Positions 14,348-39,103 of a DNA stretch of 39,103 bases are shown here, in pieces. The number at the start of each line of letters is the position of its first letter. Position 1 is the stretch's first letter. This stretch comes from a virus, in IMG/VR virus record IMGVR_UViG_3300035698_030246, positions 1 to 39,103 of that record; one strand, given 5' to 3'. The translations under genes were made by a program, and so were the position numbers. Below the pieces are notes generated by a model. The model worked only from the letters and a program-made list of their open reading frames with translations, was not told where the DNA came from and ran no database searches.

Positions 14348-14359
14348 AGGAAGAATAAA

Positions 14360-14461
14360 TTGATACCATTTCCAAATAAAAAATATCATCTTATTTATGT
14401 GGATCCACATTGGACTTATAAAGATAAAGTAAAAGTGGGAAAATCGGTAAATTACCAATAG
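14360..14461 (+). pseudogene. truncated MT-A70-like adenine methyltransferase stub
   Basis: A 33-codon reading frame (TTG start after GAGGAAG) reads KYHLIYVDPHWTYKDK...GKSVNYQ and then TAG. This closely resembles the N-terminal motif IV region of MT-A70 family N6-adenine methyltransferases, where the motif is DPPW; here it is DPHW. Full-length relatives are 180 residues or more, so almost the whole enzyme is missing and the catalytic motif is altered. It is most simply a deletion remnant lying between uvsX and gp41. Confidence 0.6.
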
Positions 14462-14482
14462 AATAATGAATGGAGAATTGAT

Positions 14483-21523: not shown

Positions 21524-21534
21524 ATTGAACAATA

Positions 21535-24441: not shown

Positions 24442-24840
24442 ATGGTAAATAATATTGATCATTTTAAGCTTTATAAAGAGTATGTTGAAAAGTGGATTGG
24501 TCTTCTAGGATTAAGAGACTGGGAATATAATATTAGATATTCAACTAATGAAGATGAATTTGCTAGTTGTGAATATAATCTAGATGGTAGAATTGCAATT
24601 TTTAATATTCGTAAAGATATTTCAAAACCAGATGATATGTATACTGGTGAAGATGGAATTACAGAAGATTATATAGAACGAGCAGCAATTGAAGAAGTAT
24701 GTCATTTACTTTTAATTGATGTAACAACATTAGTAACACAAAAAAAGAAAATTAAAGAACTTGATAAAGTTGAACATATTGTTATTAAACGATTAGAAAA
24801 TTTACTTATTAAATATTTGAAAGGGAAAGAAGTAATATGA
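24442..24840 (+). CDS. zincin-like protein with altered HExxH motif
   Basis: This 132-residue protein resembles small phage proteins of a SprT/zincin-like type: a WIGLLGLRDWEYNI start, a beta segment (ASCEYNLDGRIAIFNI) and a helix AAIEEVCHLLLID. In the relatives I recall that helix carries HExxH; here it reads E-E-V-C-H, so the first zinc-binding His is Glu. It may therefore be inactive or bind metal differently. The ATG of the ribonucleotide reductase gene overlaps its stop (ATGA). Confidence 0.5.
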   Translation: MVNNIDHFKLYKEYVEKWIGLLGLRDWEYNIRYSTNEDEFASCEYNLDGRIAIFNIRKDISKPDDMYTGEDGITEDYIERAAIEEVCHLLLIDVTTLVTQKKKIKELDKVEHIVIKRLENLLIKYLKGKEVI

Positions 24841-27611
24841 TAATTTCGAATGAATTTGTAAAAAAGTATAAAGATAAACAAGTTTCTTGGGGCTTTAATA
24901 ATTTAGGTTATATTATTTTCAAGAAAACTTATGCAAGACCATTAGAAAGTGGTGGTACAGAAGAATTTCATCAAACACTTCAAAGAGTGATAAATGGAGC
25001 TCAAGATGTTGGTGCTGATTATACAAAGAAAGAAGCTGAACGTCTTTTTGATTTAATGTTTAATCTTAAATGTAGTTTTGCTGGTAGAATGCTATGGCAA
25101 TTGGGGACAAAAACAGTTAAAAAGTTTGGTGGAAATTCTCTTCTCAATTGTTTTTTTATTGCGATTAAAGATATTGATAGTTTTTGTTTTCATATGGAAA
25201 ATTTAATGTTAGGTGGTGGTGTTGGATTTTCTGTTAGACGTGAAGATATAATGGAACTTCCAAAGATTAAAATAAATGTTTCAGTGATTTGTGATGATGT
25301 TGCTGATGCTGATTTTATTGTTCCTGATAGTAGAGAAGGTTGGGTAATGCTTTTAAGAAAAACTCTTGAAGCATTTTTTATAAACGGGAAACGTTTCACA
25401 TATTCAACAATGTTAGTTAGATCTGCTGGAACTCCAATTAAATCATTTGGGGGTATAGCTTCTGGTCCTCAAATTTTGAAAAATGGCATTGAAAATATGG
25501 TAAAGATTTTTCAATTGAGAGAAGGAAAAAAATTAAGATCTGTAGATGTTCTTGATATTTGTAATATTATTTCAAGTATTATAATTTCGGGTGGAATTAG
25601 ACGCAGTGCTTCAATTGCTTTAGGTGATCCAGATGATTTTCTTTTTTTGAGAGCTAAGAGATGGGAATTAGGAAAGATTCCTAATTGGAGATCTAATAGT
25701 AATAATTCAATATATACTGATGATTTTTCACACCTTTCAGAAGAATTTTGGAAAGGATTTAAGAATTCTGGGGAAGTTTATGGACTTTTTAATTTACCAT
25801 TATCTAAGAAATTTGGAAGATTAGGAGAACTTAGAAAAGATCCTGAAGTTGATGGAATAAATCCATGTTTAGTTGGAAAAACAAAAATTACAACACTTAA
25901 AGGTGAGGAAAGAATTGATAAGATTGTTACTGGTGATATTTTATTAACATATAATAATGAAACTGGTGAATTAGAATATGATGTTGTTCTTAAAGCTGGA
26001 CTTTCTAAGAAAAAAGCTAATGTTATTAAACTTGAGATAGATGATGGTTCTATTATAGAGATGACACCAGATCATAAAGTTTTTACAGAGAATAGAGGAT
26101 ATATTGAATCGGCTTCATTGACTAAAAATGATATATTAATGAAAATTGAAGATGATGAAACTAGTAAAAGAAAAATTGTGAAAATTACTTCTATAGAAAA
26201 TCAAGATGTATATGATATAATGATGAATAAAAATCATAATTTCTTTGCAGAAAAGATTTTGGTACATAATTGTGGAGAAGTAAATATTCCTTCTTATGGT
26301 GCATGTTGCTTAGGGGAACTTTTCCTTAATCGAATTGAATCTCAAAATGAATTAAATGAATGTAGTATGTTAATTTATAAAACATTAAAAGCAATTACAT
26401 TAATGAAATTTATTCATCCCGAAACAACTAGAGTAATGAATGAATCATCTCGTATAGGTATAGGTGTTACTGGTATTTGTCAATCTAAAGAAAAATTTGA
26501 TTGGCTTGATCCATGCTATAATAAATTGAGAAAATTTGATATTGATTATAGCAAAAAGAAGGGCTGGAATGAATCTATTAAAATTTCTACAATGAAGCCA
26601 TCGGGTTGTCAAATTCCTCAAACTATTATTAGGACATCAAAGGGAGAATTTTCTTTAACTGATATATTCAAGATGAATGACGTTGATCTGCGAGAAAAGT
26701 TAAATGATTATCGTGAATGGTATCCAGTAACAGAAGAAATATTGGTTGAAGATAAAAATAATAATTATCAAAAAATTACTAGATTGTTTATCAATGGTGT
26801 TGAAGAAACAATTAGGTTTACGATGAATGATGGAAGTGTTATTGAATCCACGTCAACCCACAAATTTCTAATGACTGATGGAGAGTGGAAAGAGGCTCGA
26901 TTTATTACAGAAAATGATGATTGGGAGACATCGGATGAGGTTAAAGTAGAAATCAAAATGTGTTATGTTAAAAAGGAGAAATTAAATAATTTCACTGTTG
27001 ATATTGAAGTTGAGAATACACATTCATATAGATTGAAAAATGGTGTAATTAGTCATAATAGTCTTTCTCTTCTTTCTGGATCAACTCCAGGAATTCATCC
27101 AGCGTTTTCACAGTATTATATTAGGCGTGTAAGAATGTCAAGTAATGATCCAATGCTTAATGTATGTAAAGATCTTGGATATCATATAGAACCAGAAGTA
27201 TTATTTGATGGTTCAGATAATTATATAACTAGTGTTGTTTCATTTCCTTGTGAATCTGGAGATAATGCAATTCTTTCAAAAGATATGACTGCAATTCAAC
27301 AAATTGAATTAATGATAGAAATGCAAACAAAATGGGTTGATCAAAGTGTGTCAATGACTGTATATTATAATGATGATGAAATTGATGGTATACGAAATTG
27401 GCTTAAGAAAAATTATAACAAATCTGTAAAAACTATTTCATTTTTGAAACATTCAGATCATGGTTTTGCTCAAGCTCCTTATGAAGAAATTGATAAAGCA
27501 ACTTATTTTAAAATGAAAAATAAGATTAAAGATGTTTCAGTTATTGATATTGATAGTTCTAGAGAATTGTTAAATATTGAATGTAGTGGTGGTCAATGCC
27601 CCGTTAGATAA
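24837..27611 (+). CDS. nrdJ: class II (adenosylcobalamin-dependent) ribonucleotide reductase with two mini-inteins
   Basis: The 924-residue precursor becomes about 638 residues after removal of inteins at residues 344-478 and 591-741. The extein contains SLLNCFF (Cys105), FSVRRED, SGGIRRSASIALGD, the active-site NP-CGEV junction (radical Cys479) and the KPSG-SLSLLSGSTPG substrate-binding loop. It ends with the C-terminal redox pair Cys916/Cys921 (CSGGQCPVR). This matches the monomeric B12-dependent ribonucleoside triphosphate reductase type (Lactobacillus RTPR-like) rather than class I or III; no NrdB or activase is nearby. It makes deoxynucleotides for phage replication and needs host adenosylcobalamin. 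No cobalamin riboswitch is visible. Confidence 0.9.
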   Translation: MIISNEFVKKYKDKQVSWGFNNLGYIIFKKTYARPLESGGTEEFHQTLQRVINGAQDVGADYTKKEAERLFDLMFNLKCSFAGRMLWQLGTKTVKKFGGNSLLNCFFIAIKDIDSFCFHMENLMLGGGVGFSVRREDIMELPKIKINVSVICDDVADADFIVPDSREGWVMLLRKTLEAFFINGKRFTYSTMLVRSAGTPIKSFGGIASGPQILKNGIENMVKIFQLREGKKLRSVDVLDICNIISSIIISGGIRRSASIALGDPDDFLFLRAKRWELGKIPNWRSNSNNSIYTDDFSHLSEEFWKGFKNSGEVYGLFNLPLSKKFGRLGELRKDPEVDGINPCLVGKTKITTLKGEERIDKIVTGDILLTYNNETGELEYDVVLKAGLSKKKANVIKLEIDDGSIIEMTPDHKVFTENRGYIESASLTKNDILMKIEDDETSKRKIVKITSIENQDVYDIMMNKNHNFFAEKILVHNCGEVNIPSYGACCLGELFLNRIESQNELNECSMLIYKTLKAITLMKFIHPETTRVMNESSRIGIGVTGICQSKEKFDWLDPCYNKLRKFDIDYSKKKGWNESIKISTMKPSGCQIPQTIIRTSKGEFSLTDIFKMNDVDLREKLNDYREWYPVTEEILVEDKNNNYQKITRLFINGVEETIRFTMNDGSVIESTSTHKFLMTDGEWKEARFITENDDWETSDEVKVEIKMCYVKKEKLNNFTVDIEVENTHSYRLKNGVISHNSLSLLSGSTPGIHPAFSQYYIRRVRMSSNDPMLNVCKDLGYHIEPEVLFDGSDNYITSVVSFPCESGDNAILSKDMTAIQQIELMIEMQTKWVDQSVSMTVYYNDDEIDGIRNWLKKNYNKSVKTISFLKHSDHGFAQAPYEEIDKATYFKMKNKIKDVSVIDIDSSRELLNIECSGGQCPVR
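25866..26270 (+). other. mini-intein 1 in nrdJ, at the radical cysteine (135 aa)
   Basis: The insertion lies between NP and CGEV. It begins CLVGKTKITTL, has block B-like MTPDHKVF (T-P-D-H) near residue 76 and an F block DVYDIMMNKNHNFFAEKILV. It ends with His-Asn before Cys+1. The +1 residue is the catalytic thiyl-radical Cys of the reductase. No homing endonuclease domain fits in 135 residues. The intact A, B, F and G blocks suggest it can splice. Confidence 0.93.
26607..27059 (+). other. mini-intein 2 in nrdJ, in the PSG/S loop (151 aa)
   Basis: The insertion lies between KPSG and SLSLLSG. It begins CQIPQTIIRT, has block B-like STSTHKFL (T-S-T-H) and an F block FTVDIEVENTHSYRLKNGV. It ends with S-H-N before Ser+1. 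No endonuclease motif is present. Its N-terminal sequence differs clearly from intein 1 (Q-I-P-Q versus L-V-G-K), so the two probably arrived independently rather than by duplication. Confidence 0.93.
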
Positions 27612-29132: not shown

Positions 29133-30080
29133 GTGATTAATAATCAATTGAAAGCACCATTTCCATATTTTGGTGGAAAAGGAAAAGTATCAAATTTTGT
29201 ATGGAAAGCATTTGGAGATGTTGCAACATATATTGAACCATTTTTTGGAAGTGGTGCTATTTTACTTCAACGTCCTTATTTCAATTCACAAAAACATAAT
29301 GAAATTATTTGTGATAAAGATGGTTTTGTAACTAATGCTTGGAGATCGATTAAAAATGATCCAGAAACAGTGGCAAAATATTGTGACTGGCCTATTAATC
29401 ATTATGATCTTGTTGCTAGAAGAAAACATCTTAATAATTTAATTCAAAAACTTTCTAAAAATCTTGAAAAAGATTTGAATTATTATGATGCTGAAATAGC
29501 TGGTTATTGGATTTGGTGTATTTCATCTTCAATTGTTCCACTAATTACAATGAAAGATTCTCGTCCTCAATTAATAGGTATTAAAGGAGTAGTAAAAAAA
29601 TCATTGATAAATTCAAATAATTCTCTTCAACCAATTTTGAAATGGATTAATGAAATTTCAAAAAGAATGAGATATGTGAAAATTGCTCATGGAGATTGGA
29701 AAAGAGTTATTGGTGGAAATTGGCAAATTGTTGAAGGTATATGTGGAATGTTTTTTGATCCACCTTATGCTGTTAAACATAGATCTAAATGTTATCGTAA
29801 AGATGATTTTAGTGTATCTAAAGAAGTTAAAAAATGGATTAAAGAAAAAGGTAAAAATGAAAATTATCGGATAGTTTATGCTGGATATGAAGAAGAAATG
29901 AGTGGTCTAGAAAAAGATGGATGGACTCTTCAAAATTGGAATACTGGTGGTGGAATATCAAATAAGAAATTAGCAAAATTATCTCAAGGATCTGAAAATT
30001 CTTTTAAGGAATGTCTTGCTTTTTCTCCCCATTGTTTGAGAGTTGAAGAGTATGTTGAAAATCCTTTAAGTATTTTATAA
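29133..30080 (+). CDS. D12-class N6-adenine DNA methyltransferase (Dam-like)
   Basis: This 315-residue protein has PFPYFGGKGK (the SAM-binding motif I region of D12 MTases), YIEPFFGSGAIL and the catalytic FFDPPYAV (DPPY motif IV) near residue 210. The chain between carries NAWRSIKND, also usual for this group. It would methylate adenines to protect phage DNA or mark strands; the target site cannot be read. It starts with GTG (29133); the ATG two bases upstream hits a stop at once. Unlike the two methyltransferase remnants near 14 kb, this one is intact. Confidence 0.82.
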   Translation: MINNQLKAPFPYFGGKGKVSNFVWKAFGDVATYIEPFFGSGAILLQRPYFNSQKHNEIICDKDGFVTNAWRSIKNDPETVAKYCDWPINHYDLVARRKHLNNLIQKLSKNLEKDLNYYDAEIAGYWIWCISSSIVPLITMKDSRPQLIGIKGVVKKSLINSNNSLQPILKWINEISKRMRYVKIAHGDWKRVIGGNWQIVEGICGMFFDPPYAVKHRSKCYRKDDFSVSKEVKKWIKEKGKNENYRIVYAGYEEEMSGLEKDGWTLQNWNTGGGISNKKLAKLSQGSENSFKECLAFSPHCLRVEEYVENPLSIL

Positions 30081-30204
30081 ATCTATTGTGCTGGGAACGA
30101 TTTGATAAATTTTGTTATAGACGATTTCTGAAAGATTTCATTGGAAATGAATCTCTCTTAGCATACTTAATTGATTTTATTAGACTTAGAAGTCAAAAAA
30201 AATC
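30081..30204 (+). other. non-coding gap before the accessory region
   Basis: No gene is seen here. One imperfect hairpin, with arms AGATTTCATT and AATGAATCT around a GGA loop, lies near 30137-30160 and is followed by a short T-containing run. It could be a weak terminator, but the stem has a bulge and low GC. Confidence 0.3.
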
Positions 30205-30233
30205 TTGACAAAGAGATAAGAATCCTCTATAAT
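30205..30233 (+). promoter_or_regulatory. near-consensus promoter 1 of the accessory region
   Basis: TTGACA (30205-30210), a 17-bp spacer and TATAAT (30228-30233) are both perfect. The flanks CTCTATAATAT and CAGAAAG are shared with the other cassettes, but the spacer is less conserved. It serves the small zinc-ribbon protein 34 nt downstream. Confidence 0.8.
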
Positions 30234-30266
30234 ATGTTCAGAAAGTCATGGAAAGGAAGATCATCA

Positions 30267-30434
30267 ATGAAAAATTCTAAGAAATACTGGTACTTTTTTA
30301 CATATTCTGAATGTCCCCTTTGTGGATCCAGTACAATGTACAAAGAGAGAATGTATAGTAAGAAACCATCCGAGCATTCTGAAAGGTATGAGTACATTGA
30401 AGCTTATGACCAATGCTTGACATTTCTCTTTTGA
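30267..30434 (+). CDS. small zinc-ribbon protein
   Basis: This 55-residue protein starts with an ATG after GGAAAGGAAG and carries CPLCGSS (residues 16-22) followed by YKERMYSKKPSEH and YEYIEAYDQC. This looks like a known style of tiny phage protein with a Cys pair at each end, but the function is unknown. Its last codons and stop lie in a 52-bp tandem duplication; the ancestral end was probably CLTFL-stop, and after duplication it reads CLTFLF-stop. Confidence 0.6.
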   Translation: MKNSKKYWYFFTYSECPLCGSSTMYKERMYSKKPSEHSERYEYIEAYDQCLTFLF

Positions 30435-30482
30435 AAGGTATGAGTACATTGAATCTTATGACCAATGCTTGACATTTCTCTA
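30380..30482 (+). repeat. 52-bp tandem duplication over a gene 3' end
   Basis: A unit starting TGAAAGGTATGAGTACATTG is repeated with an offset of 52 bp (second copy from 30432). About 50 bp match with one mismatch (AAGCTT versus AATCTT). The first copy encodes the end of the zinc-ribbon protein; the second lies after its new stop. Each copy includes a TTGACA hexamer, but neither is followed by a good -10 box at 16-18 bp. Confidence 0.93.
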
Positions 30483-30516
30483 AAAGTCACGAGATGGTAT
30501 ATATGAAAGGTTTATT

Positions 30517-30975
30517 ATGTTTCAGCGATATTCAATATCTCTTTTATTTTTTCTATTATCAACATTTTCATTTGCAGATTTAAAATCAGCTGTTCCAATT
30601 CCTTTGAAATATGATAAAATTATATATAAGACAATTTATTTAGAGTCTCGTGGAGAAAATCTTAAAGGGCAAGTGGCAATCTTATATGTAATTAAAAATC
30701 GATCTAAAGAACGAAAAAAGACAATGATTGATATTTGCCTTCAGAAAAATCAATTTTCTTGCTGGAATAAATGTAAACCAACATCATTGCAATGGAATGA
30801 TGATTTAGAAAATTTTGCTACAACTTTAGATACTTCTATTGATGATTATTATGTCGATATTTTTTCCTTTTTTAATCATTATCATAATCCCAAAAAAGTT
30901 TCTCCAAAATATTATCGAAATGATAATATTTTTTCTACAAAAATTGGTAATCATATATTTTATAGATTGATATAG
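30517..30975 (+). CDS. SleB-like cell wall hydrolase with signal peptide
   Basis: This 152-residue protein starts with a signal peptide-like segment (MFQRYSISLLFFLLSTFSFA, residues 1-20) with likely cleavage after FSFA. The mature part has TIYLESRGENLKGQVAILYV...NRS and NQFSCWN, the conserved signature of the SleB/Hydrolase_2 cell wall hydrolase family, including the catalytic Glu in the ESRGE motif. Export suggests peptidoglycan cutting from outside the membrane, for lysis or superinfection effects. It is separate from the GH24 lysozyme at 7.8 kb, so the phage has two wall hydrolases. Confidence 0.85.
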   Translation: MFQRYSISLLFFLLSTFSFADLKSAVPIPLKYDKIIYKTIYLESRGENLKGQVAILYVIKNRSKERKKTMIDICLQKNQFSCWNKCKPTSLQWNDDLENFATTLDTSIDDYYVDIFSFFNHYHNPKKVSPKYYRNDNIFSTKIGNHIFYRLI

Positions 30976-30986
30976 AAAGTATAATT

Positions 30987-31313
30987 ATGAAAAAATCATT
31001 TAGGACTTTAATCAGGGGAATTAAAAAAGCTCAGGATTCAAAATGTCGTGAGAAAGTTTGTGCTATTGGTATTAGTCATAAGGGTGGAATAATGGGATAT
31101 TCTTATAATTATCCAAGGTTTAAGCGAAAGGGTGGTTCTATTCATGCTGAAATTGTATTGATGAGACAATACGGAAAAGAATTAAAGACTATTGTAATTC
31201 TTCGCACTAATAAATATGGGAATTTTCTACCTATTGATCCATGTAAAAATTGTCAAAAAGTAGCTAAAAAATTAGGAGTGAGTATAACAAGTATAGATGA
31301 AAAATCTGATTAA
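30987..31313 (+). CDS. small cytidine deaminase-fold protein
   Basis: This 108-residue protein contains the deaminase zinc site: IHAEIVLM with His and the proton-shuttling Glu (about residues 52-54) and DPCKNCQKVAKKLGV with the two Cys ligands (about 91-94). The N-terminal half carries IGISHKGGIMGYSYN. It is shorter than most free dCMP deaminases and lacks their usual flanks, so its substrate (free nucleotide, RNA or DNA base) is open. It is followed 21 nt later by the amidoligase gene. Confidence 0.75.
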   Translation: MKKSFRTLIRGIKKAQDSKCREKVCAIGISHKGGIMGYSYNYPRFKRKGGSIHAEIVLMRQYGKELKTIVILRTNKYGNFLPIDPCKNCQKVAKKLGVSITSIDEKSD

Positions 31314-31334
31314 AATTTATTATGGAGGAAGAAA

Positions 31335-32138
31335 ATGAAAATGGTAAAAAATCATAAAGAATTTCAAGTAGGATTTGAATTAGAGTTTATATGTAATATT
31401 GATTTTAAAACTCTAAGGAAAATTATTACTACAATACTAAATGTATCAAAAGCAAAATATGGTATTGATTTTGATATTATATCAAGATATCGATCCGATC
31501 CAAAATCAACTAAATTAGAATTACGAAAAAATGCTTTGATTATTAAAGATGATAAAAGTCTTAGACCAAATAAAAAAAATCAATATACTTATGAGATTTC
31601 AACTCCAGCTTGGCCGTTAAAAAAATCTCTTTTACTTCTTGAAGATCTTTTTAGAATTCTTCAAGTGATTGATGCTGATACAAATTCAAGTTGTGGTTTT
31701 CATGTTAATATTGGATTTTTCAATTATAAGAAATCTCAAAAGATTAATCCATTTTATCTTTCAATGCTAGTAAAAGATATTGAAGTTTTAAAAGAATTTA
31801 AGAGGCTTTCAAATAAATTTTGTCGATCTATCCATTATGATATAAATAATCAAATTTATTTCAATGATGATGAAAATGATTTGATTGATTCTGTTCTAAA
31901 TCATGATGTATATTCAACATATCATTCTATTAATTTTGCAAATTTGGAAGAATTTGGTTTTATTGAATTTAGGTCAATTGGTGGTAAAAAATATCATTTA
32001 AGATTTAAAAGAATATCTCATTGGATTTTTCATTTTATAGATTGTATAAATGATTCGATTGGAGAGAAAAAGAAAAGAACTGTATATAGAAGATTGAATC
32101 AGATGAAAAATAATCATATAAAATTTCCTCAACGTTAA
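31335..32138 (+). CDS. putative amidoligase (glutamine synthetase-like fold)
   Basis: This 267-residue protein has VGFELEFIC (residues about 12-20), the signature start of the amidoligase_2 family. It continues with SSCGFHVNIGFFN near the middle, YHSINFAN and FIEFRSIGGKKY near the C-terminus; these hold the metal- and ATP-binding acidic and His residues. Family members are predicted to join carboxylates and amines with ATP, making peptide-like bonds on proteins or cell-wall peptides. Phage copies are known but their targets are mostly undefined. It ends just before a promoter. Confidence 0.78.
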   Translation: MKMVKNHKEFQVGFELEFICNIDFKTLRKIITTILNVSKAKYGIDFDIISRYRSDPKSTKLELRKNALIIKDDKSLRPNKKNQYTYEISTPAWPLKKSLLLLEDLFRILQVIDADTNSSCGFHVNIGFFNYKKSQKINPFYLSMLVKDIEVLKEFKRLSNKFCRSIHYDINNQIYFNDDENDLIDSVLNHDVYSTYHSINFANLEEFGFIEFRSIGGKKYHLRFKRISHWIFHFIDCINDSIGEKKKRTVYRRLNQMKNNHIKFPQR

Positions 32139-32150
32139 TGAAATCAATGA

Positions 32151-32220
32151 TTTATAAAATACGATTTCTCTTGACATAGCATAGAAAATGCTCTATAATA
32201 TACACAGAAAGATTGAGAAG
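32151..32220 (+). promoter_or_regulatory. promoter cassette 2, class A upstream element
   Basis: TTTATAAAATACGATTTCTC (32151-32170) precedes TTGACA (32171-32176), a 17-bp spacer and TATAAT (32194-32199), followed by the shared CACAGAAAGATTGAGAAGGG leader. The 20-bp upstream element is identical at 36806-36825. Only a 5-codon reading frame (ATG at 32226) follows before a second promoter. Confidence 0.85.
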
Positions 32221-32286
32221 GGAAAATGATAAAGATCAAATAAGAGAGCGTAAGGAGTCTCTAAGGAGTTTAATGAAAAATAGTTC

Positions 32287-32340
32287 TTGACATAGTATAG
32301 AAAATGCTCTATAATATACACAGAAAGATTGAGAAAGGGA
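32287..32340 (+). promoter_or_regulatory. promoter cassette 3, class B upstream element
   Basis: AATGAAAAATAGTTC precedes TTGACA (32287-32292), a 17-bp spacer and TATAAT (32310-32315), then the shared ACACAGAAAGATTGAGAAAG leader with the ribosome site for the gene starting at 32352. It lies 116 bp downstream of cassette 2, so the two promoters act in tandem. Confidence 0.85.
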
Positions 32341-32351
32341 GATTTAATATT

Positions 32352-33467
32352 ATGGGTAAACGAAAACTTTCAAAAGCTGTATATGAGTCAATGGTCAGAT
32401 CCAAGGAAAATGAGCCTAGTGTAAATGGTATTGATATTGATGAATCCATGCTAGGTGATTTAATTGGATGGTATCGACACAATTGTAGTTTTGAAGATAT
32501 TCAAAAATATGTTCTTGGATATCTTAAATCTAATGAATATGTAAAAGAAGATATTGTTGCGATTGAACGGTGTAAAAGTGAATTATATTTATCTTCTACT
32601 TGGGGTATTCTTGCTAGAATTATTGACAATGGTGGTATTTTGTCAAAAAAGCGTGTTGAAAATCTTAAAATTGAGCTTTCAAAGTCAATTCGTGTTGGAA
32701 TGTCAATAAAGGAAAATGATAAAAGATCAAATGGGGGTGGAATTCAAGAATATATTGCAAAGCAAGTAAGTTCGTATCTCTCTGAGCTAGAAGGAGAGCG
32801 TGATATTTTTATTGACAATGGTTATAGATCAGATTTTGACATTCTTCAATGGTTAATTAATTTCGAGGTTGGTGGAGTTCAGGCTAAGAAAATAGGGAAA
32901 TTTTTCGAGAATGTTTATAATGAGCTTCTTTCAGCAAAAAATAAAGAATGTGAACAGCTAGTTGAAGCATATTCATTTCTTAAAAAAAGTGAAATGAAAC
33001 GATATATTCAATTTATGGAATCATTTATCGATGGAATTTCTGAATATATTGGTAAAAAGAAAAGAATAAAAAAATCACAATCAAAAAAATCAGTTAGAAA
33101 AAGTCCAGATAAAATTGTCTTTAAGGTGAATTATGAAAAAGAGAATAAAGATATTTCAGTGAAATCAATTAAACCAGCAAAAATTTTGGGTGCTAAAGTG
33201 CTATGGCTTTTTAATACCAGATATCGAATTCTTAGTAAGCTAGTTGCTAAAGATATCGATGGATTTGGAATTAAAGGAACTACAGTACAGAATATTGATG
33301 ATTCATGTTCCTATGGTAAGACTTTGAGAAAACCTAAAGAACATCTTAAATTGATATCTGGATCATTGCGAAAAGCTGAGAAATTCTTTGAAGAGATTAA
33401 ATCTAAGGAGAAGAATGTTACTGGAAGAATTGGAAAAAATACTTTAATTATTAAAGCTGTAAAATAG
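32352..33467 (+). CDS. conserved hypothetical protein of T4-like phages
   Basis: This 371-residue protein starts at the ATG at 32352 (upstream in-frame codons lie in the promoter leader). It is soluble, mostly helical, with a basic linker (KKKRIKKSQSKKSVRKS, about residues 238-254) separating two parts. The C-terminal part contains KPAKILGAKVLWLFNTRYR and GTTVQNIDDSCSYGKTLRKP, which I recall from conserved unknown proteins in marine T4-like phages. Strong promoter control suggests early expression. No enzyme motif is recognised. Confidence 0.65.
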   Translation: MGKRKLSKAVYESMVRSKENEPSVNGIDIDESMLGDLIGWYRHNCSFEDIQKYVLGYLKSNEYVKEDIVAIERCKSELYLSSTWGILARIIDNGGILSKKRVENLKIELSKSIRVGMSIKENDKRSNGGGIQEYIAKQVSSYLSELEGERDIFIDNGYRSDFDILQWLINFEVGGVQAKKIGKFFENVYNELLSAKNKECEQLVEAYSFLKKSEMKRYIQFMESFIDGISEYIGKKKRIKKSQSKKSVRKSPDKIVFKVNYEKENKDISVKSIKPAKILGAKVLWLFNTRYRILSKLVAKDIDGFGIKGTTVQNIDDSCSYGKTLRKPKEHLKLISGSLRKAEKFFEEIKSKEKNVTGRIGKNTLIIKAVK

Positions 33468-33480
33468 AGGATTTTAAATA

Positions 33481-34098
33481 ATGTCAAAAATAACATTCAT
33501 AGGAGATCCTCATGGACAAACTAAAGCATTAGAAAAATGTAATAAGAATGCTAATGTTCTTATTTTGGGTGATGTTGATCTTTATGGATATTATAAATGG
33601 GGAAATATAGCTAGACAATTTAAACATGCAGTAAGATTTATTGATGGTAACCATGATGCTTTTCCAAATCTTTTTTTGGATGCTAAAAATCCAACAGAGA
33701 TTGAAGAAAACTTTTATCATATTCCTAGAGGTTATATTGAAGGAAATACAATGTATATTGGTGGCGGTGATTCTATCGATAAAGCTTCTAGAATTAAGGG
33801 AATCTCTTACTTTCAAGAAGAGAAAATTAGTGAAAAGCAAGCTGAAAGAATTTTATCTATTAATGCTGAAAAGATTGATACTATAATTTCACATGATTTA
33901 CCTTTCAGTGCTGTAAAGTATGTTGTAAATAATAATATTATGATGTTGTCAGTTTCTTTATTTCTTGAAAATGTTTTAAATCATTTCAATCCATATAGAT
34001 GGATTTTTGGGCACTATCATAAATCAATTGATTTCTCACATTTAAAATGTGATTTCATTGGACTCAATCAAGAAGAAAATAGAGAAATAAAAATTTGA
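33481..34098 (+). CDS. metallophosphoesterase
   Basis: This 205-residue calcineurin-like phosphoesterase shows the metal-site motifs in order: GDPHG (D-x-H, residues 8-12), ILGDVD (GDxx), DGNHD (GNHD), SHDLP and GHYHKS (GHxH). All expected metal ligands are present. Substrates of such phage enzymes range from cyclic nucleotides to RNA 2',3'-cyclic phosphates. Its location between a promoter and the RtcB RNA ligase allows a role in RNA-end repair, but that is inference. Confidence 0.87.
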   Translation: MSKITFIGDPHGQTKALEKCNKNANVLILGDVDLYGYYKWGNIARQFKHAVRFIDGNHDAFPNLFLDAKNPTEIEENFYHIPRGYIEGNTMYIGGGDSIDKASRIKGISYFQEEKISEKQAERILSINAEKIDTIISHDLPFSAVKYVVNNNIMMLSVSLFLENVLNHFNPYRWIFGHYHKSIDFSHLKCDFIGLNQEENREIKI

Positions 34099-34113
34099 AA
34101 GGGAAGATTAATT

Positions 34114-34350
34114 ATGAATAAAGAAATGTTGATAGGATATTTTGAAAATCAGATTCGATCTGAAATTATTGAAATTCTTAAAAAGCATAAAGTTGATGAT
34201 AAGATTCTCATTCGAAATCGATTAGGATATGCTGGAAAAGGTAAGAATGGAGAAATTGAGGTAGTTGCTATTAATAGAGAAATGAGAATTTCAGAAACTC
34301 TAGCAATTGATCTTTTGAATTTGAAATTGAAGAATGTAAGACTTATTTAG
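34114..34350 (+). CDS. unrecognised 78-residue protein
   Basis: This small protein follows the phosphoesterase by 15 nt with GGGAAG as ribosome site. It has an N-terminal helix (IGYFENQIRSEIIEILKKHK) and the segment RNRLGYAGKGKNGEIEVV. No family is recognised. A GTCTCTCAGGAGTC block and a promoter follow. Confidence 0.55.
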   Translation: MNKEMLIGYFENQIRSEIIEILKKHKVDDKILIRNRLGYAGKGKNGEIEVVAINREMRISETLAIDLLNLKLKNVRLI

Positions 34351-34372
34351 AAGTCTCTCAGGAGTCTTTAAA

Positions 34373-34452
34373 TTTAATGAAAAATAGTTCTTGACATAGC
34401 ACAGAAAATGCTCTATAATATATACAGAAAGATTGAGAAGGGGAGATTTAAT
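34373..34452 (+). promoter_or_regulatory. promoter cassette 4 upstream of rtcB, class B
   Basis: AATGAAAAATAGTTC precedes TTGACA (34391-34396), a 17-bp spacer and TATAAT (34414-34419), then ACAGAAAGATTGAGAAGGGG, which supplies the ribosome site for the ATG at 34453. It is nearly identical to cassette 3, including the TTAATG upstream of the element. Confidence 0.85.
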
Positions 34453-35610
34453 ATGTATCATATGATAGATAAAATTCCAATATGGTCATCTTCAGAAGAT
34501 ATATCTATTGAAGCTATAGATCAAACTAAAAGATGTCTTAAAGATGGTATGAGAGCTGCCATAATGGGAGATTATCATAAGGGATATTCTCAAGCTATTG
34601 GTACTGTTATAGCATATAAAAATATGATTTCTGTATCTGGCGTTGGATATGATATTTCTTGTGGAAATAAATGTATTCGATTAGCTAATGTATCTGAAAA
34701 TGATGTTCGTGAAAATATTGAAGATATTATGAATGAAATTTATTTCAAGATTTCTTTTGGAGCTGGTATTCCTAATAAAGAAAAAGTTGATCATGCAATT
34801 TTTTATGATCCAATGTGGCAATCTGAAGATGCTCTTAAGAATCTTTTAGATGTATCTAGAAATCAAATTGGTACTATTGGTTCTGGAAATCACTTTATTG
34901 ATATTTTCATTGATGAATCTGGTTCTGTGTGGTGTGGAATTCATTGTGGATCTAGGAAATTAGGACATTCAATAGCTTCTTATTTTTTGAAAGCTGCTGG
35001 TGCTAAGAATGGAATGGATGTTGGTCCCTGTCTTTTAGAAGAAAATTCTAATCTTGGTTCAAGGTATATAAATTGTATGAATCTAGCTGGAAAATATGCT
35101 TATGCTTCTAGAGATTGGATTTGTGATAAGGTATCACAAATTATGGGAGCTCAAGAAATTGAATCAGTTCATAATCATCATAATTTTGCTTGGAAAGAAA
35201 ATCATTATGATGAAGATTTTTGGATAATTCGTAAGGGTGCTACTCCTTTGAATCCTAATCAAGATTCATTTGTTGGTGGATCTATGGGAGATAATTCAGT
35301 TATTATAACTGGTATTGATAATGCTGAAGCTAGAATGTCGATGTTTAGTGCTCCTCATGGTGCTGGGAGAAAAATGGGACGTATGGCAGCTAAGGGGAAG
35401 ATTGCTAAAGATGGTACTGTCAAGAGAGTTGGAAAAATTTCTAGAGAAATGATGTATTCTTGGTTGTTCGAAAAGGGAGTTTATTTGGTTGGAGGTGATG
35501 TTGATGAAAGCCCACAAGCTTATAAAAGGCTTGATGAAGTTATGAATAATCATAGTGGATATATTAAGATCAAGCATACTCTTTCTCCTATAGGAGTAGC
35601 TATGGCTTAA
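34453..35610 (+). CDS. rtcB: RtcB RNA ligase
   Basis: The start at the ATG at 34453 gives a 385-residue protein. It has GDYHKGYSQAIGTVIAY, GVGYDISCGNKCIR (metal-binding Asp/Cys), GTIGSGNHFI, CGIHCGSRKLGH, VHNHHNFAW and SAPHGAGRKMGR with the GMP-accepting His. All these are diagnostic of RtcB, which joins 2',3'-cyclic-phosphate RNA ends to 5'-OH ends using GTP and Mn2+. In phages it can repair tRNAs cut by host anticodon nucleases. The tRNA genes 0.9-3 kb downstream fit that role. Confidence 0.94.
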   Translation: MYHMIDKIPIWSSSEDISIEAIDQTKRCLKDGMRAAIMGDYHKGYSQAIGTVIAYKNMISVSGVGYDISCGNKCIRLANVSENDVRENIEDIMNEIYFKISFGAGIPNKEKVDHAIFYDPMWQSEDALKNLLDVSRNQIGTIGSGNHFIDIFIDESGSVWCGIHCGSRKLGHSIASYFLKAAGAKNGMDVGPCLLEENSNLGSRYINCMNLAGKYAYASRDWICDKVSQIMGAQEIESVHNHHNFAWKENHYDEDFWIIRKGATPLNPNQDSFVGGSMGDNSVIITGIDNAEARMSMFSAPHGAGRKMGRMAAKGKIAKDGTVKRVGKISREMMYSWLFEKGVYLVGGDVDESPQAYKRLDEVMNNHSGYIKIKHTLSPIGVAMA

Positions 35611-35616
35611 TTTTTT

Positions 35617-35643
35617 GAAAATAGTTCTTGTTATATATAAATA
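35617..35643 (+). promoter_or_regulatory. degenerate promoter cassette with TATAAATA
   Basis: GAAAATAGTTCTTG (35617-35630) matches the class B upstream element and the start of the -35 box, but ACA is then lost and the sequence continues TTATATATAAATA. TATAAATA (35636-35643) equals the T4 late promoter core. It may be a decayed copy or a converted late promoter; AT-richness makes the TATAAATA match weak evidence. Confidence 0.3.
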
Positions 35644-35667
35644 AAAAAGGAATTGAAAGGAATTGAA

Positions 35668-35811
35668 ATGAATTTTAATGAAATTGAAATTCTGAGTTAT
35701 AAAAAAATTCTTGAAGATTGGAATAATGATTATGTCAATGATATTTCATTAGATGAAGTACCAAAAGAAGGTATTTTTGATAGATTGGAGAATGATGATG
35801 AATATAAATAA
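35668..35811 (+). CDS. small acidic protein, 47 residues
   Basis: The ATG at 35668 follows two tandem AAAGGAATTG blocks. The product has a helix (IEILSYKKILEDWNNDY) and an acidic tail ending ENDDEYK. No family is recognised. Its last 14 bases overlap the likely start of the next gene at 35798. Confidence 0.5.
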   Translation: MNFNEIEILSYKKILEDWNNDYVNDISLDEVPKEGIFDRLENDDEYK

Positions 35812-36100
35812 TTTCTCAGTTAAATTTTTGCGAATGACAAATCTTGAAAAAACTCCATGCGAACAATGGACTACTTCTGTTAATGGAGTTAGAAAAACTG
35901 CTAATACTATGGAAGAAGCAATTAGTATCATTTTTGAAGATTTAAATTCTCTATCTAATAATGTGATTAATAATTTTGATGATTCTATTGATGAAATTAA
36001 TGATTCTTTCAGTAGCATTGAAGATGTAATAGATGATCTTACAAGTAGTATTAAAATTTATAAATCTGATATTCATAAACTTAGAAAGAGGATATTGTGA
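35798..36100 (+). CDS. small coiled-coil protein, about 100 residues
   Basis: Three consecutive ATGs (35792, 35795, 35798) follow GGAG; the third sits at 7 nt spacing and is preferred. The N-terminal part has TNLEKTPCEQWTTSVNGVRK and the rest is a long acidic helix (MEEAISIIFEDLNSL..., then DSIDEINDSFSSIEDVI) probably forming a coiled coil, ending in a basic KLRKRIL tail. The function is unknown. Its stop overlaps the GTG start of the next gene. Confidence 0.5.
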   Translation: MNINNFSVKFLRMTNLEKTPCEQWTTSVNGVRKTANTMEEAISIIFEDLNSLSNNVINNFDDSIDEINDSFSSIEDVIDDLTSSIKIYKSDIHKLRKRIL

Positions 36101-36288
36101 AATTTACTATTGATGATATTCATGAAGGAGATGTTGTCAGACTCCATAGAGGAAATTCATTATGGTATATCGGTGATATAAAAAATCATCATGGCAAATA
36201 TATACCATTGATTAATACTGAAAATTTAAGTATATTTGATTCTGTAAGATTAAATAAAATTGCGAATGTTTTTGGCACCAGAGAATAA
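36097..36288 (+). CDS. small SH3/KOW-like protein (GTG start)
   Basis: This 63-residue protein begins at GTG 36097, overlapping the previous stop (GTGA). EGDVVRLHRGNSLWYIGDI reads like a small beta-barrel. The following protein has a comparable NGDLIRIHGSSKIKKIVLNG segment, so the two may be diverged copies. No function is recognised. Confidence 0.45.
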   Translation: MKFTIDDIHEGDVVRLHRGNSLWYIGDIKNHHGKYIPLINTENLSIFDSVRLNKIANVFGTRE

Positions 36289-36469
36289 AGAGGAACTATC
36301 GATTAAAATAGAAAATGGCGATCTTATAAGGATTCATGGATCTTCAAAAATTAAGAAAATTGTTTTAAATGGTTGTTATATTAACTATGATATTGCAGTA
36401 CTTTATCGGATTTTTGTAGTATTTGATATACCAGAAAAAAAGTTTTTAAGAAATGGTAATAATTTTTAA
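36266..36469 (+). CDS. small beta-rich protein, possible paralogue of its neighbour
   Basis: The ATG at 36266 gives 67 residues; it overlaps the previous gene by 23 bases. The segment NGDLIRIHGSSKIKKIVLNG lines up with EGDVVRLHRGNSLWYIGDIK of the preceding gene. The rest (YDIAVLYRIFVVFDIPEKK) is hydrophobic and beta-like. No family is recognised. It ends 3 nt before the inverted repeat that encloses the tRNA-Asn gene. Confidence 0.4.
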   Translation: MFLAPENKEELSIKIENGDLIRIHGSSKIKKIVLNGCYINYDIAVLYRIFVVFDIPEKKFLRNGNNF

Positions 36470-36472
36470 AAG

Positions 36473-36570
36473 TTTAGTGAATAGCTGCGAAGTAGCTCAA
36501 TTGGTAGAGCACTTAACTGTTAATTAAGGGGTTTCTGGATCGTAACCAGACTTCGCAGCTATTCACTAAA
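36473..36570 (+). repeat. 20-bp perfect inverted repeat enclosing tRNA-Asn
   Basis: The left arm, TTTAGTGAATAGCTGCGAAG (36473-36492), and the right arm, CTTCGCAGCTATTCACTAAA (36551-36570), are exact reverse complements. The inner 7 bp are the tRNA acceptor stem; the outer 13 bp extend it. The whole would fold as a tRNA on a 20-bp helical stalk. Confidence 0.97.
36486..36558 (+). tRNA. tRNA-Asn(GUU)
   Basis: The cloverleaf is readable: acceptor TGCGAAG/CTTCGCA, D-arm GCTC...GAGC, anticodon arm CTTAA-CTGTTAA-TTAAG (anticodon GTT), variable GGGTT and T-stem TCTGG/CCAGA. The T-loop is ATCGTAA, so the normal T54 and A58 appear exchanged (A54, T58). CCA is not encoded. The acceptor stem continues outward for 13 more base pairs. 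Confidence 0.85.
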
Positions 36571-36577
36571 ATAATGT

Positions 36578-36653
36578 GGGTGTGTAGCTCAGTTGGTAGA
36601 GCAGGAGTCTTTTAAGCTCTTGGTCGTGAGTTCAATTCTCACCGCACTCACCA
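36578..36653 (+). tRNA. tRNA-Lys(UUU)
   Basis: Acceptor GGGTGTG/CGCACTC (two wobble pairs), D-arm GCTC-AGTTGGTA-GAGC, anticodon loop CTTTTAA (anticodon TTT), T-loop TTCAATT, discriminator A and encoded CCA. It is 76 nt long and standard in all respects. Confidence 0.93.
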
Positions 36654-36654
36654 T

Positions 36655-36756
36655 CAACAACTTTCAATAACTTTAGAGATAGTTTTAAGATGTTTCAGGC
36701 ATTATGGAAAAAAGAATCTTGGAGGTGATTTACCTAAATGGGTATCTGAAGAATAA
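36655..36756 (+). pseudogene. possible C-terminal gene remnant after tRNA-Lys
   Basis: One frame from just after the tRNA to TAA at 36754-36756 reads LSITLEIVLRCFRHYGKKN and then GGDLPKWVSEE. This looks like real protein sequence but has no start codon or ribosome site. It may be the tail of a gene whose front was lost. The bases from here to the next promoter (36826) hold nothing else I can identify. Confidence 0.3.
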
Positions 36757-36805
36757 AAATTCAATTCAATTCAAATAATAATTATAAGTCTAATGATTAC
36801 AATAA

Positions 36806-36880
36806 TTTATAAAATACGATTTCTCTTGACATATAGTTAAAAATGCTCTATAATATACACAGAAAGATTGAGAGAGGAGG
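36806..36880 (+). promoter_or_regulatory. promoter cassette 5, class A
   Basis: TTTATAAAATACGATTTCTC (36806-36825), TTGACA (36826-36831), a 17-bp spacer and TATAAT (36849-36854), then ACACAGAAAGATTGAGAGAG leading to GGAGG. The upstream element is identical to cassette 2 over 20 bp. Confidence 0.85.
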
Positions 36881-36894
36881 ACTTGAAAGTATTT

Positions 36895-37338
36895 ATGAAA
36901 TCTAATAAATCATCTCGAAAAAAGCTTATGGAATCAATTAAAATCGCTATTTTTGCTCACGAAGGTCAATTTGATTTGAATGGTGATTTATATATTCTTC
37001 ATCCATTATCTGTTATGAATTCTGTTCAGGGAGATTTACAAAAATCTGTTGCAGTGTTACATGATGTTATTGAAGATACTAATATTTCAGAAGATTTTTT
37101 AAGATCACGAGTTGGTGAAGAAATTGCTAGTTTAGTATCTGTATTAAGTCATAATAAGAATGAATCTTATGATGAATACATTAAAAGAGTATCTATATAT
37201 CCAATTGCTGTAGATGTTAAGATATCTGATTTGATAGATAATTTAAAGGAATCAAGAAAACTTTTGAAAACTGAATCTTCTGAAAATCGAAGAATTAAAT
37301 ATAAAAAGGCTTTAATTATCTTAAGAAGTTCTTCTTAA
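36895..37338 (+). CDS. HD-domain (p)ppGpp hydrolase-like protein (MESH1/RelA-SpoT hydrolase type)
   Basis: With the ATG at 36895 the protein has 147 residues. It shows the RSH-hydrolase metal site: His22 in FAHEGQ, His36 in ILHPLSV, His56-Asp57 in VLHDVIED with Glu60-Asp61, and the later VKISDLIDNL Asp. These match small alarmone hydrolases that remove the 3' pyrophosphate from (p)ppGpp. It would shut down the stringent response or reverse alarmone-type toxins during infection. TTG codons at 36868 and 36883 lie too close to GGAGG, so ATG is preferred despite a long spacer. A strong early promoter drives it. Confidence 0.82.
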   Translation: MKSNKSSRKKLMESIKIAIFAHEGQFDLNGDLYILHPLSVMNSVQGDLQKSVAVLHDVIEDTNISEDFLRSRVGEEIASLVSVLSHNKNESYDEYIKRVSIYPIAVDVKISDLIDNLKESRKLLKTESSENRRIKYKKALIILRSSS

Positions 37339-37384
37339 GGCTTCAATGTAAAATCATTTTAATTATAGAAAAGGAGAATGAATA

Positions 37385-37525
37385 ATGTCTTATCTTGAAA
37401 GTTGTTCGGATTTTTCAAATGAAGTCTCTGATGAAAATGAAAATGATTGGTATGAAGATGAAGATGAAGATGAATATCCTAATTGTGCTGATTGTCAAAA
37501 TGTTTATTGTTGTTGTGAATGGTAG
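37385..37525 (+). CDS. tiny acidic Cys-rich protein, 46 residues
   Basis: The ATG at 37385 follows a strong AAAAGGAG. The product has an acidic middle (YEDEDEDEYPN) and a Cys-dense end (CADCQNVYCCCEW) that could bind one zinc ion. No family is recognised. Composition and the good ribosome site argue for a real gene. Confidence 0.5.
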   Translation: MSYLESCSDFSNEVSDENENDWYEDEDEDEYPNCADCQNVYCCCEW

Positions 37526-37536
37526 ATTTTAAAAGT

Positions 37537-37638
37537 GGAAGGGTGCCCGAGTGGTTAAAGGGGATGGGTTTAAAACCCAAGGTTTTAAACCCATTGGGCG
37601 TTATGTCTTCATTGGTTCAAATCCAATCCCTTCCACCA
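37537..37638 (+). tRNA. tRNA-Leu(UAA)-like gene with a 14-nt expanded anticodon arm
   Basis: Acceptor GGAAGGG/CCCTTCC, discriminator A, encoded CCA, T-arm ATTGG-TTCAAAT-CCAAT and a long variable arm fit tRNA-Leu. A canonical arm would be ATGGG-TTTAAAA-CCCAT (anticodon TAA). Instead bases 37564-37594 form a perfect 14-bp hairpin (ATGGGTTTAAAACC, loop CAA, GGTTTTAAACCCAT). Removing 14 nt restores a normal 88-nt tRNA-Leu. The gene is 102 nt and may be non-functional or processed. Confidence 0.75.
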
Positions 37639-37673
37639 TCACAATTATGAATAATTTTAAAGGAGATGTTATT

Positions 37674-37841
37674 ATGAATGAATATAGAATTATTGATGAT
37701 ATTAAATCATATATTAAAGAACTTTTGAGTGAATATGAAGATGATTTCTCCAATGAATCAGATTATCGAAAAGGTTATAATGAATGCCTTAATATTGTAA
37801 TTGAAGATCTTCAAGATATAGTTGAAAAATATGAAGATTAA
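37674..37841 (+). CDS. small acidic protein, 55 residues
   Basis: The ATG at 37674, 7 nt after AAAGGAG, is chosen; the longer frame upstream runs into the tRNA gene. The product is acidic and helical (IDDIKSYIKELLSEYEDDF, YRKGYNECLNIVIEDLQDI). No family is recognised. Confidence 0.55.
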   Translation: MNEYRIIDDIKSYIKELLSEYEDDFSNESDYRKGYNECLNIVIEDLQDIVEKYED

Positions 37842-37861
37842 ATTTGATACATAGGAAAGAT

Positions 37862-37935
37862 GTACGATTTCTCTTGACATATAGGTAAGAATACTCTATA
37901 ATATACATAGAAAGATTGAGAGAGAAAGGGAGACT
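37862..37935 (+). promoter_or_regulatory. promoter cassette 6
   Basis: TACGATTTCTC precedes TTGACA (37874-37879), a 17-bp spacer and TATAAT (37897-37902), then ACATAGAAAGATTGAGAGAG leading to AAAGGGAG. The proximal half of the class A upstream element is kept. Confidence 0.85.
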
Positions 37936-37936
37936 T

Positions 37937-38536
37937 ATGAAAAATAATGGATTTTATCTGAACGCAATTGAAATTCGAAAAGATGGATTTTATCTACTTT
38001 TTCGAAAAGATGAAGATTATGAAAATGTTATTTATGAAAAGATGGAAATATTTTCTTTTAAATATCTTCAATACATTTGTAAAATTAATGAGGGTGTAAC
38101 TCTTAGGGATATTTTGAGAACAGTAAGTGGGATGGAAATACTTGCTGATTTCATTACAGAATATTCTTTGTGCCCAAAAGAATTTCTTCAATATCATCTT
38201 CATTCACCTAAAACATTGGATACAAAAATCTCTCATATAGAAATTTTGAAATATATTGAAATCTGTGAAGATGATATTGAAATCTGTGATGATATATCGG
38301 CTATTATGATAAATGAATATTGTGATCATTTAGCAATAGGGCCAAATCTTTTCTATCTATTGGATTGTGTAGTTGAGATTAATTCAAATTGTTCAATTGA
38401 AAAATTTGAATCCGATATTTCCGATATTTATGTTGGCTTAGTTGAAGATAAGAATATTGATTTTTCATTTCTTGATATTTTACATATAATTTATTTTGAA
38501 ATGAGCTTTTATGGTAAACCTGCAGAAGATTGGTAA
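37937..38536 (+). CDS. unrecognised 199-residue protein
   Basis: The ATG at 37937 follows AAAGGGAGA and cassette 6. The protein is acidic, Ile/Glu/Asp-rich, with FYLNAIEIRKDGFYLLFRKDED at the start and an acidic ICEDDIEICDDISAIMI in the middle. No motif or family is recognised. Strong promoter control suggests an early host-takeover protein. Confidence 0.6.
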   Translation: MKNNGFYLNAIEIRKDGFYLLFRKDEDYENVIYEKMEIFSFKYLQYICKINEGVTLRDILRTVSGMEILADFITEYSLCPKEFLQYHLHSPKTLDTKISHIEILKYIEICEDDIEICDDISAIMINEYCDHLAIGPNLFYLLDCVVEINSNCSIEKFESDISDIYVGLVEDKNIDFSFLDILHIIYFEMSFYGKPAEDW

Positions 38537-38549
38537 AATTAAAATATTT

Positions 38550-38637
38550 GCCGATGTGGCGGAACTGGTAGACGCACAAGATTTAAAATCTTGTGGGGAT
38601 TTTCCCCGTGGAGATTCAAATTCTCCCATCGGCACCA
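38550..38637 (+). tRNA. tRNA-Leu(UAA)
   Basis: Acceptor GCCGATG/CATCGGC, anticodon arm CAAGA-TTTAAAA-TCTTG (anticodon TAA), variable arm with TGGGGATTTTCCCCG, T-loop TTCAAAT, discriminator A and encoded CCA. It is 88 nt long and a normal class II tRNA. It decodes UUA, the leucine codon expected to dominate in such AT-rich genes. Confidence 0.95.
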
Positions 38638-38654
38638 TTAATTGGAAAAAACTT

Positions 38655-38795
38655 ATGAAAAATATTTCAGTAATATCTAAAGGAACTAGATGTTATGAAA
38701 TAGTACATGTTGATAAAACTATTGGAAAAATGAAAATTATTACATGTCCATATTATGAAAGTCATCTCAAGATAGAAAAGAAATTGTTGAAATAA
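38655..38795 (+). CDS. possible tiny protein, 46 residues
   Basis: The ATG at 38655 opens a 46-residue frame ISVISKGTRCYEIVHVDKT...ITCPYYESHLKIEKKLLK. Upstream in-frame sequence is the tRNA gene. The ribosome site is poor. The residue mix looks protein-like but nothing is recognised. Confidence 0.4.
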   Translation: MKNISVISKGTRCYEIVHVDKTIGKMKIITCPYYESHLKIEKKLLK

Positions 38796-38853
38796 ATCAA
38801 GCTTCTGAAAAATATGAATGTTGAAAATTTTTCTAAGAAGAAAGAAGATTTAA

Positions 38854-39103
38854 ATGATGAATCAAGAACTTAAGGAAGCTTCTAAGATTGGCTCTGTGGA
38901 GGTTGTCAAGGCATTGCTTAAATGTGGTGCTGATGTTCATGCTGATAATGATGAAGCTCTTAGGTGGGCTTCTTATAATGGTCATTATGAGACTGTCAAG
39001 GTTCTACTAGAGAATGGAGCTGATGTTCATGTTAATAATGATTATGCTTTTAGGTGGGCTTCTTATAATGATCATTTAGAAACTGTTAAGGTTCTTCTAG
39101 AAA
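38854..39103 (+). CDS. ankyrin-repeat protein (3' partial)
   Basis: From the ATG at 38854 the frame is open to the window end (83 full codons). It encodes ankyrin repeats of 33 residues with typical VEVVKALLKCGADVH, ALRWASYNGHYETVKVLLE and NGADVHV motifs; the second and third units are close copies, also at DNA level. Ankyrin repeats bind other proteins. They are rare in phages and more typical of intracellular bacteria, giant viruses and poxviruses. GC is visibly higher than in the surrounding genes, consistent with recent acquisition or expansion. Confidence 0.82.
   Translation, partial: MMNQELKEASKIGSVEVVKALLKCGADVHADNDEALRWASYNGHYETVKVLLENGADVHVNNDYAFRWASYNDHLETVKVLLE

Follow-up and report, generated by a model that had tools for sequence, protein, structure and literature searches.

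The stretch of DNA analysed in this study, hereafter the window, is the viral record IMGVR_UViG_3300035698_030246 (positions 1-39,103; 39,103 bases), an incomplete record carrying a T4-like phage gene set: clamp, clamp-loader subunits, translational regulator, PolB, a RecA-like protein, a DnaB-like helicase and a ribonucleotide reductase. Two of these genes contain candidate inteins, the helicase gene at 14483-16291, where a Pfam intein match falls below the cut-off, and the ribonucleotide reductase gene at 24837-27611, where inner stretches match other families. Between the RecA-like and helicase genes, the 674 bases at 13809-14482 hold no ORF of at least 60 aa, and ankyrin-like repeats, recognized by eye, run off the record end at 38856-39103. 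ARAGORN and Rfam together identify a tRNA island with tRNA-Asn(GUU), tRNA-Lys(UUU), a gene with an overgrown anticodon arm, which we call the Tyr-type gene, and tRNA-Leu(UAA). The features of this region are as follows.

34453-35610, plus strand: RtcB-family RNA ligase gene (Pfam PF01139, 223.6 bits, E 7e-66)
36473-36570, plus strand: 21-nt perfect inverted repeat with arms at 36473-36493 and 36550-36570, adding 13 bp to the outer end of the tRNA-Asn acceptor stem
36486-36559, plus strand: tRNA-Asn(GUU) without encoded CCA (ARAGORN, Rfam, direct reading)
36578-36653, plus strand: normal tRNA-Lys(UUU) with CCA (ARAGORN, Rfam)
36826-36854, plus strand: sigma-70-like site with 12/12 consensus matches, within a 62-nt repeated module upstream of the Tyr-type gene
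37537-37638, plus strand: Tyr-type gene, a class II tRNA gene of 102 nt with a tRNA-Tyr body, overgrown anticodon arm and encoded CCA (Rfam RF00005, 54 bits; D-arm comparison)
37564-37594, plus strand: perfect 14-bp inverted repeat with a CAA loop, replacing the anticodon stem-loop (sequence and fold)
37569-37575, plus strand: first loop copy, TTTAAAA, which as a 7-nt loop would show the anticodon UAA (direct reading)
37583-37589, plus strand: second loop copy, TTTTAAA, which as a 7-nt loop would show UUA (direct reading)
38550-38637, plus strand: normal tRNA-Leu(UAA) with CCA (ARAGORN, Rfam)

The tRNA-Asn gene lies 1 kb upstream of the Tyr-type gene. The 62-nt module with the TTGACA-17-TATAAT site occurs at 36815-36876 and again at 37863-37924, the two copies being 94% identical, and leaders that resemble it by eye precede the ORFs at 32304 and 34408. 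Promoter-like sites number 22 in total, no excess over the mean of 20.8 in shuffled sequence, and no terminator was found in 36000-39103.

Both the sequence and the predicted fold confirm the claim of an earlier note on this DNA that the anticodon arm has become a perfect hairpin, since 37564-37577 and 37581-37594 are perfect reverse complements flanking CAA. The statement that the other arms are intact also holds: acceptor, D, variable and T arms are all present in the fold beside an anticodon arm of 15 pairs, one of them G-U, CCA is encoded, and none of 200 shuffles folds as well. Rfam places 37537-37635 in the tRNA family (54 bits against a gathering score of 29, model positions 1-71); tRNA is the only family over threshold, and three weak matches lie below their gathering scores. 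A decoding tRNA has a 7-nt loop on a 5-bp stem, whereas the minimum-energy and centroid folds of this RNA both have a 3-nt loop on a stem of 14-15 bp. The long-hairpin fold has an energy of -41.1 kcal/mol. Forcing the first loop copy into a 7-nt loop gives -34.9 kcal/mol, 6.2 worse, and forcing the second gives -28.6 kcal/mol, 12.5 worse, with the D arm broken in both cases, while keeping the outer stem with an open loop gives -26.8 kcal/mol, a cost of 14.3. This folding model predicts that the Tyr-type RNA displays no anticodon at equilibrium. TTTAAAA is the exact reverse complement of TTTTAAA, and because the two copies differ, the original anticodon is not fixed by the sequence alone. ARAGORN in its default settings misses the gene altogether, which reveals a blind spot, and with introns allowed reports it with a 12-nt insert and a Lys(ttt) anticodon.

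Another finding from this study concerns the identity of the tRNA body. The 20-nt D arm of the Tyr-type gene was found in 19 viral stretches, and in every one of them the anticodon loop, read directly, contains GTA; ARAGORN calls tRNA-Tyr in 17 and does not list the genes in L050 and L054, the latter being cut by the end of its stretch. In body alignments the best scores were 51.5 among 17 tRNA-Tyr, 33.5 among 6 tRNA-Ser and 25.0 among 10 tRNA-Leu, a comparison that favours Tyr in that its Tyr pool was mostly gathered by the D arm; the lead narrows when only the 3' part is aligned, the best Tyr scoring 26.5 and the single Ser among the 15 rows listed 21.5. The gene has the class II body, the CCCGAG...AAAGGG D arm and the A73 of a tRNA-Tyr. 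It lacks the GUA anticodon, and relative to the Tyr loop CTGTAAA the copy TTTTAAA differs at positions 32 and 34 and TTTAAAA also at 35. Archaeal tRNAs that resemble tRNA-Leu by eye carry a similar D arm, and the D arm of the window's own tRNA-Leu is quite different. On these comparisons we read the gene at 37537-37638 as derived from tRNA-Tyr. The earlier note had taken it for a tRNA-Leu(UAA), an assignment that does not agree with its body, which resembles tRNA-Tyr and is not that of a bacterial tRNA-Leu; a Leu(UAA) gene with a spare copy nearby was rejected on the same scores. It had also argued that the spare tRNA-Leu relaxes selection. An intact tRNA-Leu(UAA) does lie 0.9 kb away; however, because the body is Tyr-like, it is probably not a redundant copy, which weakens the argument. 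One exact pattern for an ochre-type tRNA-Tyr gave no stretches in viral_contigs.

The hairpin by itself is modestly unusual, and its exact seat on the anticodon arm is the notable part. A 14-nt arm with a loop of up to 10 arose in 1 of 60 first-order simulations of the window, and an arm of at least 14 with spacing up to 200 in 30 of 100 second-order simulations. Random 14-nt inserts in the arm gave perfect pairing over 14 bp in 398 and 342 of 1,000,000 trials for two parents.

A second overgrown stem, new in this analysis, is found at the tRNA-Asn gene, where the 21-nt arm exceeds the longest arm of 17 reached in 100 second-order window simulations (0/100). We counted outward pairs of the acceptor stem in 171 distinct tRNAs, three of them from the window, after dropping identical repeats and tRNAs within 30 bases of an end; the Tyr-type gene is absent from this set, as ARAGORN does not list it. 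There were none in 110, one in 58, two in 2 and thirteen in one, the tRNA-Asn, and among the 168 distinct tRNAs of other viral loci the extension never exceeded two. The inverted repeat sits where an encoded CCA would, as the Lys, Leu and Tyr-type genes have it. The discriminator is followed by CCA in 96 of the 171 tRNAs, so its absence alone is ordinary; together with the 13-bp extension it may hinder the usual end processing of this tRNA. Perfect inverted repeats of at least 14 nt with spacing up to 200 are in fact locally in excess: the window has four, against a mean of 0.35 in 100 simulations, and three of the four fall within the 1.8 kb of 36473-38281. In 618,161 bases of 45 viral loci there were 13 such repeats, or 0.82 per 39.1 kb, and 0.56 per 39.1 kb in the 8 loci below 34% GC; arms in the comparison loci reach 20 nt, so long ones are not unique to this phage. 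The repeats at 38187-38281 and 21534-21628, with arms of 16 and 14 nt, lie in or at the start of ORFs.

We think it reasonably probable that a tRNA-Tyr-type gene with a near-palindromic anticodon arm underwent template switching at that arm during DNA replication, that the resulting inverted duplication left a decoding-dead and probably recent gene, and that a similar event in the island lengthened the tRNA-Asn acceptor stem. The transcript would fold as a tRNA whose anticodon arm has 14-15 bp closed by a loop of three bases, would offer no usable anticodon and most likely would not decode; a decoding-dead gene would be the simplest functional reading of this predicted fold. When 13-16 nt of the arm are simply duplicated in tandem, no more than 12 perfect pairs result over three parents, and the 3' trailer of the tRNA-Asn is an inverted copy of its 5' leader, which tandem duplication could not produce; these two observations together favour template switching. 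In an event script, one event plus one base change fits TTA and TAA parents with T at position 32, while 3 or 4 changes are required from a GTA parent. The quasi-palindrome template switch suggested in the earlier note is the best-supported origin and is strengthened by the tRNA-Asn extension; the script, with no ancestor sequence to use, does not separate inverted copying from duplication, its best solution being a repeated stretch plus a 4-nt filler. No near relative was found, so a recent date for the event is inferred.

Searches for relatives were extensive. Neither the exact arm nor its core with 1-8 nt between was found in viral_contigs, and megablast of 30000-39103 against phages gave no match. 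Used as a query, the Tyr-type tRNA matched 70 phage records, none over more than 80% of its length; the match with the lowest E-value, 0.08, covers its first 27 bases in BcepSauron, where ARAGORN finds a tRNA-Tyr, and the 3'-part matches among those listed lie in genes annotated tRNA-Ser or tRNA-Met, or in no gene. PolB relatives are at most 46-47% identical. A relative of the HD protein occurs in 26 records; in 14 of these every match of the tRNA was short, with E up to 1 in 5 of the 14 and 0.008 at best. We found tRNAs in 10 of 18 records searched, which comprise those of 15 of the 80 PolB relatives and of L029, L065 and L066, and no perfect long anticodon stem in the nine long or class II matches folded. 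Enlarged Tyr-like genes were collected in 5 viral and 60 genome stretches, none alike by eye, with ARAGORN run on 17 of these 65 loci. With introns allowed, ARAGORN reports anticodon-loop inserts in three genes of two records among 141 viral loci (964,718 bases; 189 calls, counting repeats), and as both records were chosen through the enlarged-gene pattern this count carries no information on frequency. In the paper listings examined, judged by titles and abstract openings, no phage tRNA is described whose anticodon arm has grown to form a perfect hairpin.

Two of the records met in these searches deserve separate mention. IMGVR_UViG_3300049573_000219 (L243 80-198 and 300-385; L248) carries two tRNA-like genes with extra anticodon-arm hairpins, 1.5 to 4.4 kb from RNA-ligase and TROVE (Ro60-like) genes in a record of 67% GC over the 17 kb read, and it is possible that they form a phage set of tRNA mimics; the first L243 gene scores as tRNA with 41.3 bits in one Rfam search, is unlisted in another and matches no Y-RNA family. 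The other holds a gene resembling tRNA-Leu(UAA) whose anticodon loop carries an intron-like insert of 36 nt (L066 4602-4719, the same as L246 2192-2309), scored as tRNA with 40.8 bits in one search and unlisted as tRNA in another. Folds of the genes in both records show no perfect stem extension like that of the Tyr-type gene.

Two features speak against pure accident: the rest of the Tyr-type RNA is intact, which would equally be expected of an RNA maintained for a non-decoding function, and a neutral accident may not suffice for two stem extensions in the same island. A maintained non-decoding tRNA-like RNA, whose duplex arm resists anticodon-loop nucleases and which titrates a tRNA-targeting defence or another tRNA-binding enzyme beside the RtcB ligase, is an unlikely explanation that nevertheless accounts for the intact arms and CCA and for the RtcB gene 1.9 kb upstream. 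Excerpts of published work report that phage tRNA-Tyr counters retron-Eco7 and Septu (PMC11555353, PMC13096335), that jumbo phages encode RtcB and in some cases TROVE proteins, which the authors relate to RNA repair (PMC7824862), and that YrlA, a tRNA-like RNA encoded alongside RtcB, has been suggested to act by competitive inhibition (PMC7790460). However, rescue from retron-Eco7 was lost when the anticodon of the phage tRNA-Tyr was changed or its stem-loops were mutated, and the authors of that report, in the part excerpted, presume that the protein-synthesis function of the tRNA is needed (PMC11555353), which for this one tRNA-Tyr-targeting defence counts against the nuclease decoy raised in the earlier note; moreover, the arm was found in no relative, hence there is no covariation to show maintenance. 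We are a little more doubtful still that the phage keeps both the Tyr-type anticodon arm and the Asn acceptor arm as long perfect duplexes, that is, as stem-armoured tRNAs.

A sequencing or assembly artefact at the palindrome is decidedly unlikely. The hairpin is known from a single virus record and from no other in viral_contigs, where near copies of the record may be omitted, yet at both inverted repeats the flanking sequence continues correctly on either side, which distinguishes them from a simple fold-back chimera, and the effect is seen at two separate sites. Decoding through a minor or co-transcriptional fold, by the first copy (UAA, reading the Leu codon UUA) or the second (UUA, reading the stop codon UAA), seems to us very unlikely. 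Infernal does align the first copy as the anticodon arm, and UUA makes up 378 of the 11,631 codons counted; against this, both forced folds lose energy and the D arm as given above, the body is Tyr-like, and a UAA-reading tRNA should be costly where TAA ends 24 of the 41 window genes counted, out of 42 listed (TGA 10, TAG 7; late genes lie outside the window). Stop-codon recoding in this phage was rejected on the same stop usage. Highly improbable is an intron-like insert of 14 nt that is excised and sealed, for example with RtcB as the ligase. The RtcB gene is nearby, the insert can by direct reading be placed at the canonical 37/38 position, and archaeal introns are mostly 12-25 nt according to an excerpt of PMC4090602, but the arm is an unbroken helix and not the bulge-helix-bulge that archaeal endonucleases recognise, and a splicing endonuclease was not found among 34 proteins of this incomplete record compared with Pfam and a further 6 compared with PHROGs alone. 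An intron of archaeal or eukaryal type was rejected on this unbroken helix, and a group I intron because 14 extra nt are too few for a ribozyme core and Rfam gives no such match. The unusual processing offered as an alternative in the earlier note, taken as an intron, therefore finds no support in the fold.

What looks like stem growth in tRNA genes occurs twice within 1.2 kb, and if the favoured origin by template switching is correct, this process would be seen to shape the evolution of phage tRNAs. Should the RNA be retained and stable, it would represent a tRNA-Tyr-like RNA lacking an anticodon, with which one could ask directly whether a phage tRNA counters tRNA-targeting defences when it does not decode.

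Comparison with known systems places the Tyr-type gene close in form to bacterial and phage tRNA-Tyr(GUA) of class II, with which it shares the D arm, the variable-arm layout, the T arm, A73 and the encoded CCA, and the tRNA-Tyr of L057 has GATGGG and CCCATTGG with GCGTTA around the loop in common with it. It differs in having no GUA anticodon and in the replacement of the loop by a 14-bp hairpin. Archaeal tRNA genes with anticodon-arm introns likewise combine a class II body and a similar D arm with a short insert in the arm. Of the 60 enlarged genome stretches, 53 are archaeal by title or, for four genera that we take to be archaeal, by name; many look like tRNA-Leu by eye, which ARAGORN confirms for one among those run (L073). 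By eye none of the archaeal genes is a perfect extension of the anticodon stem, whereas the gene described here belongs to a T4-like phage and lacks a bulge-helix-bulge. The bacterial Y RNA YrlA of rsr-yrl-rtcBA operons, as described in an excerpt of PMC7790460, is a tRNA mimic without a decoding role that is encoded with RtcB, and by analogy a tRNA-mimic role for the Tyr-type RNA is possible; the difference is that 37400-37800 has no Y-RNA family match (E up to 1; four Rfam matches) and that none of the 34 window proteins compared with Pfam matches TROVE. An excerpt of PMC8794818 reports that perfect RNA stems arise and lengthen through inverted copying by template switching, as is proposed here; the hairpins in that excerpt lie in microRNA and rRNA genes, while here they would lie in two phage tRNAs without an ancestor for comparison. 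Finally, phage tRNAs with anticodon-loop changes directed against host tRNases (PMC10264068, in excerpt) resemble the Tyr-type gene in having an altered loop. Those mutations are predicted to give insensitivity, whereas in the Tyr-type gene the loop is gone altogether.
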